From the NCBI RefSeq assembly GCF_900111645.1, contig NZ_FOHQ01000001.1, forward strand, positions 124,001 through 188,000: a stretch of 64,000 nt of DNA. The letters run 5' to 3'. This DNA is from Methanococcoides vulcani (GTDB lineage: Archaea; Halobacteriota; Methanosarcinia; Methanosarcinales; Methanosarcinaceae). The translations under genes were made by a program, and so were the position numbers. Shown one piece after another: positions 12,035 to 13,248 of the stretch. The notes beneath the pieces were generated by a model. That model searched no databases. It was not told the origin of the DNA and saw only the letters and a program-made list of their open reading frames with translations. Numbering within the stretch: the stretch's first letter is position 1; each line of letters opens with the position of its first letter.

Positions 12035-13248
<1,214 letters not shown>

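Follow-up and report, generated by a model that had tools for sequence, protein, structure and literature searches.

The window, a 64,000-nucleotide stretch of Methanococcoides vulcani DNA, comes from a draft genome (G000) of 2.31 Mb in 15 contigs, 99.95% complete and belonging to the genus Methanococcoides. It carries a gene for SepCysS, the enzyme that completes the synthesis of cysteine on its tRNA, whose frame runs from an ATG at 13239 to a TGA at 12085 and includes a TAG at codon 102 (Table 1). When the TAG is treated as a residue, the product scores 593.2 bits against the SepCysS / PscS family model TIGR02539 (cut-off 365.25) and 515 bits against the sequence of a solved SepCysS (PDB 2e7i). 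The TIGR02539 alignment covers residues 18–384 and crosses the TAG, so that the first-pass annotation was right both in calling this codon the sole interruption of a 384-codon frame and in placing family similarity on either side of it. Like other members of the family, the gene has a full-length match, conserved cysteines and the PLP lysine: K222, which we take to be the PLP lysine, and C51, C54 and C260, presumably the conserved functional cysteines, are invariant in 36 sequences and common to both SepCysS-family paralogues in G000. The in-frame TAG sets it apart from the family, as none of the best 80 of 142 SepCysS relatives in genome_contigs has an internal stop, and none occurs in 19 family members from outside the genus that were aligned with the 11 Methanococcoides genes. 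Elsewhere in the window, a DUF927 / NrS-1 polymerase-like ORF (8255–10741, minus strand) lies near a tRNA-Gly gene (11876–11949, minus strand), and the two (8255–11949) perhaps mark an element integrated at the tRNA.

Table 1. Features of the SepCysS locus (window coordinates) and further candidate genes with in-frame TAG in G000 (own locus coordinates).
Feature	Position	Strand	Basis or remark
pscS / SepCysS (O-phospho-L-seryl-tRNA:Cys-tRNA synthase)	12085..13239	-	384 codons, one in-frame TAG
TAG, codon 102 of SepCysS, proposed pyrrolysine codon	12934..12936	-	only in-frame stop
GGA, codon 101 (Gly), adjoining the TAG	12937..12939	-	codon alignment of congeners
SepCysS 3' part downstream of the TAG, under purifying selection	12085..12933	-	dN/dS, neutral P
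RNA polymerase subunit L gene (Rpb3/Rpb11 type), upstream neighbour	13328..13603	-	PF13656
Csl4-like exosome subunit gene, upstream neighbour	13634..14404	-	PF14382, PF00575; name Csl4 inferred
PGF-domain protein, in-frame TAG candidate	L205:6747-8660
MarR-like regulator, in-frame TAG candidate	L213:9488-10006
YgjP-like protein, in-frame TAG candidate	L220:17380-17949	-
ORF of 180 aa, unknown, in-frame TAG candidate	L045:18751-19293

All 60 genomes searched, G000 included, contain a SepCysS-family match, with at least 60% identity in 49 and more distant matches in the other 11. Alignment with related strains placed the same TAG at the same codon in three of the 11 Methanococcoides genomes (G000, G007 and G010), the remaining eight having CAG (Gln), from which TAG differs by one transition. 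None of the three TAG-bearing genes has another stop within its 384 codons or any change in length. Among the best 80 of 142 relatives, site 102 is more variable than 93% of positions, with nine residue types (K 36, E 14, Q 13, N 6, R 5, S 2, V 2, H 1, M 1); counts for residue 101 were omitted because this alignment is gapped beside the site. The first-pass annotation had expected a lysine here, which agrees with the wider family, where lysine is commonest (36/80), but not with the genus, where every TAG-free congener (8/8) has glutamine. In an AlphaFold2 model built with 36 sequences (mean pLDDT 88.9), residue 102 falls in a predicted loop between a helix (89–100) and a strand (106–110).

The genome does not lack pyl genes, and the check for pylTSBCD returned a complete set. 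Contig C8 of G000 carries tRNA-Pyl (anticodon CTA), pylS, pylB, pylC and pylD together, the four proteins all exceeding their NCBIfam cut-offs with open frames and pylS being full-length at 708 bits; a PylS N-domain above cut-off is present in 11/11 Methanococcoides genomes. The single aRF1 above cut-off in G000 retains its NIKS stretch, so nothing recognizable bars it from terminating at UAG. A release factor without UAG recognition was considered and rejected, since the NIKS and YxCxxxF-like stretches, which we take to be the aRF1 motifs, are as in relatives (29 sequences); in the same 29 sequences, five residues elsewhere in the protein distinguish the genus. An Rfam search of window positions 11800–13400 at E-values up to 1 gave no PYLIS match, the only hit being a tRNA, and in G000 a 103-nt stretch from the UAG onward shows no more stable folding than shuffled sequences (z +0.59). 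According to excerpts of PMC9499178, a PYLIS is not required for pyrrolysine decoding.

The use of TAG as a stop was estimated with a simple, custom-made ORF finder. A 600-kb sample, about 26% of the G000 genome, yielded 488 ORFs that were 60 codons or longer and satisfied a codon-usage score; they ended in TGA (265), TAA (216) or TAG (7). Three of these seven TAG ends continue as coding sequence: SepCysS itself, a protein with a PGF-pre-PGF domain, and MtbB (L204:1786-3189), a known kind of TAG-containing gene that serves as a positive control. The other four belong to pylB, to an unknown ORF of 143 aa, to one that weakly matches an IS5 transposase, and to a YgjP-like ORF in which the Pfam match reaches beyond the TAG, leaving at most 4 true TAG ends among 485 sampled ORFs. 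In G010, TAG ends 3 of 144 ORFs, two of which run on, one of them SepCysS; the estimates for G005, G020 and G017 are 1/127, 1/104 and 1/92. Two sampled relatives without a PylS above cut-off, G039 and G042, have 10/93 and 17/107 TAG ends, which differ from the 4/485 of G000 with p about 4e-6 and 2e-10, respectively. Pyl genes alone are no guarantee of TAG depletion, because G013, in which pylS is present, has 9/86 TAG ends, unlike the other sampled pyl genomes (L190-L195).

Comparison of the three TAG-bearing genes indicates purifying selection on the part downstream of the TAG. In this 3' part, G007 and G010 are separated by 30 silent differences but just 2 replacement differences (dN/dS 0.017); dN/dS is 0.098 for G000 versus G007 and 0.113 for G000 versus G010, and the neutral P is below 1e-15 in each of the three pairs. 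Codons in the 3' part unique to TAG branches comprise 8 silent and 6 replacement in G000 and 5 silent and 3 replacement on the stem of G007 and G010, together 9 replacement to 13 silent; the four TAG-free branches included in the count have 1 replacement and 21 silent between them. Constraint on the 3' part may thus be somewhat relaxed on the TAG branches, yet not neutral. For the gene as a whole, homology and selection are seen on either side of the UAG.

We interpret TAG102 as a pyrrolysine codon that is translated to give full-length SepCysS, with a probability of about 0.87, because the genome holds the pyl set, rarely ends genes in TAG, shares the codon with two congeners and shows purifying selection downstream of it; the first-pass proposal to this effect is therefore well, though indirectly, supported. 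PylB, PylC and PylD would make pyrrolysine, PylRS would charge tRNA-Pyl, and the charged tRNA would outcompete the release factor at UAG102, yielding a 384-residue SepCysS that carries pyrrolysine at residue 102 and presumably works.

How far the organism would rely on this product depends on its other routes to Cys-tRNA. SepRS is above cut-off in 11/11 Methanococcoides genomes and CysRS in 2/11 (G001 and G003), with no CysRS above cut-off in the three TAG genomes or in six of the eight TAG-free congeners. The search for a second cysS or pscS in G000 thus found no CysRS above cut-off but did find two more members of the SepCysS family, one on C10 (47% identity, 500 bits) and the other on C9 (43% identity, 417 bits). 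Both exceed the family cut-off of 365, have no internal stop, and keep the same cysteines and PLP lysine as the TAG gene. Duplicate SepCysS copies are said, in excerpts of a review (PMC9499178), to share one function. It is possible that cysteine decoding depends on pyrrolysine, as the first-pass annotation had proposed; SepRS and the lack of a CysRS above cut-off fit this claim, which is only half supported because of the two further stop-free genes. The third SepCysS-family gene (L041:4459-5907, minus strand) has an N-terminal extension of roughly 75–100 residues; SepCysE-like fusions are described in excerpts of PMC5424206.

The same paralogues are an argument that the gene is dead or dying, with translation stopping at codon 102 and Cys-tRNA coming from one of the intact copies, and the commoner replacement codons downstream of the TAG point the same way. 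We consider this very unlikely, since all three TAG genomes keep the gene free of a second stop and unchanged in length, and the G007 and G010 genes have diverged almost entirely at silent sites in their 3' parts; intact paralogues do exist, but selection on the 3' part argues against a gene making only a 101-aa product. Even less likely is that the enzyme assembles from two polypeptides, residues 1–101 and a product restarted at GTG 107, which opens a 278-aa ORF in G000, or at ATG 109, which is present in all three TAG genomes. The break would fall in the modeled loop, but ATG 109 also occurs in the TAG-free G001, GTG 107 is absent from G007 and G010, and the genome has a dedicated UAG-decoding tRNA. 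More doubtful again is read-through by another tRNA inserting glutamine or some other standard residue: UAG is one base from CAG and from AAG, and near-cognate decoding of UAG occurs, but such read-through is usually weak, and a tRNA-Pyl with the CTA anticodon is at hand. A sequencing or assembly error, for which one could cite the draft state of the window genome, can be dismissed, because three congeneric genomes (G010 being a single contig) have TAG at this codon, and their SepCysS genes differ pairwise by about 3–9%.

To reconstruct the history of TAG102, we aligned a 4.2-kb region containing the aRF1 gene and argS (the latter recognized by eye) from 11 genomes. In the resulting tree, G000 groups with three CAG genomes (98% bootstrap), and monophyly of the three TAG genomes is rejected (AU p 0.018); in a test on the SepCysS gene tree, the AU p for TAG monophyly is about 0.5. 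A tree of the upstream flank has a support of 48 at the key node, and the downstream-flank tree, from which G009 was left out for lack of sequence, has branch lengths of up to 1.3, which suggests that the downstream flanks are non-homologous. Because the aRF1/argS-region tree rejects the grouping, TAG was either gained twice, or gained and lost, or moved by recombination; by hand count on that tree, two gains and a gain plus a loss are equally short. Residue 101 varies with the codon next to it: glycine accompanies TAG in 3/3 and alanine accompanies CAG in 8/8 congeners (Fisher p 0.006, uncorrected for kinship). Unless recombination moved the TAG, TAG102 would have been swapped each time along with residue 101.

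A single C-to-T change in a CAG (Gln) codon, at a variable position of the modeled loop, is the probable origin of the TAG, and such a change is close to a missense change because the genome hardly uses TAG as a stop. It looks like a near-neutral swap of glutamine for pyrrolysine, by analogy with Thg1 of Methanosarcina acetivorans, since the predicted loop site is among the 7% most variable and our searches found no RNA element. Alternatively, pyrrolysine may have been selected in SepCysS, tying Cys-tRNA synthesis, in strains with no CysRS above cut-off, to pyrrolysine supply and hence to growth on methylamines. In favor of this are the link between Gly101 and TAG, the non-grouping of the TAG genomes and the lack of CysRS above cut-off in them. 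We regard it as unlikely, because G000 has two spare SepCysS-family genes, variability at the site is high, and CysRS is likewise lacking in six of the eight congeners without TAG. The link with Gly101 perhaps comes down to two events at base.

The near-neutral swap has a precedent in Thg1 of M. acetivorans, in which pyrrolysine was physically seen and the residue is not essential for activity (excerpts of PMC2933860). That work is Heinemann et al. 2009, as cited in PMC2933860 and PMC8211752, with a title that mentions neutral evolution. As in Thg1, the in-frame UAG of SepCysS is found in an enzyme that is tRNA-related and not one of the methylamine methyltransferases, and, as expected of this type, the site tolerates many residues and TAG occurs in only part of the lineage (3/11). 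The two cases differ in enzyme and genus, in that the SepCysS TAG is found in three genomes whereas the excerpts of PMC2933860 give Thg1 from one species, and in that pyrrolysine was detected in Thg1 while in SepCysS it is predicted from the sequence. All 11 Methanococcoides Thg1 matches are free of internal stops. The methyltransferases MtmB, MtbB and MttB resemble SepCysS in their single in-frame UAG, which is read as pyrrolysine, one such MtbB being encoded in G000. In these enzymes the residue is considered to take part in methyl transfer, and the codon is conserved except in mttB3 of M. burtonii (excerpts of PMC2933860); the SepCysS site, in contrast, is highly variable, with glutamine in 8/11 congeners.

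Earlier computed candidates outside the methyltransferases include a TetR-like regulator and transposases (excerpts of PMC1914089) and a CobN-like ORF (excerpts of PMC1242214), the last judged a probable pseudogene in PMC1914089. Like the present case, they come from methanogens with pyl genes and show homology on either side of an in-frame TAG; SepCysS is a different protein, for which three genomes, sister species lacking the TAG and a test of selection can be drawn on. Excerpts of a 2021 review (PMC8211752) give Thg1 and transposases as the sole other proteins known to contain pyrrolysine. Our literature search, in a collection that lacked most subscription papers, found no pyrrolysine-containing SepCysS. 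This is probably a case of pyrrolysine entering by a near-neutral codon change, here in a new enzyme. Kivenson and colleagues (Science, 2025) reportedly described archaea in which every TAG codon is translated as pyrrolysine; the features reported for them, scarce TAG stops and TAG genes outside methylamine metabolism, are shared by G000, and the novelty of TAG as a general pyrrolysine codon is lowered accordingly.

The present case would add a central enzyme to the probable pyrrolysine proteins outside methylamine metabolism. With close relatives as controls at one codon, TAG appears to act in Methanococcoides as an ordinary sense codon that is swapped with CAG. Annotators should be aware that such genes may be split into two fragments or labeled pseudogenes. 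If the residue proves necessary for the enzyme, cysteine decoding would rely on a second non-standard amino acid.

Other in-frame TAGs were sought in G000 by an ORF search that treats TAG as sense. TAG was found in 34 of 475 ORFs; in most of them it lies close to the first possible start (up to about 30 codons away), probably ahead of the true start. Seven ORFs were flagged as having an internal TAG, of which L041 was discounted (its TAG precedes the likely ATG) and L214 is uncertain; candidates from G000 are listed in Table 1. Two ORFs in the window (3562–3867 and 61235–61705) were flagged with a smaller training set, disappeared with a larger one, have no Pfam match, and were rejected. In G010, a PAS/GAF histidine-kinase-like gene of 694 codons (L173:14140-16221) has an in-frame TAG, also at codon 102, within its PAS domain match. 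The TAGs of this gene and of the MarR-like and YgjP-like genes of G000 fall, like that of MtbB, in what is likely coding sequence, and count in favor of the pyrrolysine reading.

The pylB gene (L039:3795-4907, minus strand; L222-L232) ends in TAG in 11/11 Methanococcoides genomes, one base ahead of the likely pylC start (ATG in nine, GTG in two), and translation past the TAG would lengthen pylB by 42 codons in all 11. Among seven stretches from other genera (L245-L251), pylB was not found in one (G014) and ends in TAG in 5/6 genomes where it was found; the pylB-matching ORF of G013 (L246) has a TGA end and a dissimilar C-terminus. Excerpts of PMC2933860 note the TAG end as a stop for M. mazei, M. 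acetivorans and M. burtonii, and in G000 this UAG is very probably a real stop. A TAG end on pylB in a genome with hardly any TAG stops invites the idea of feedback.
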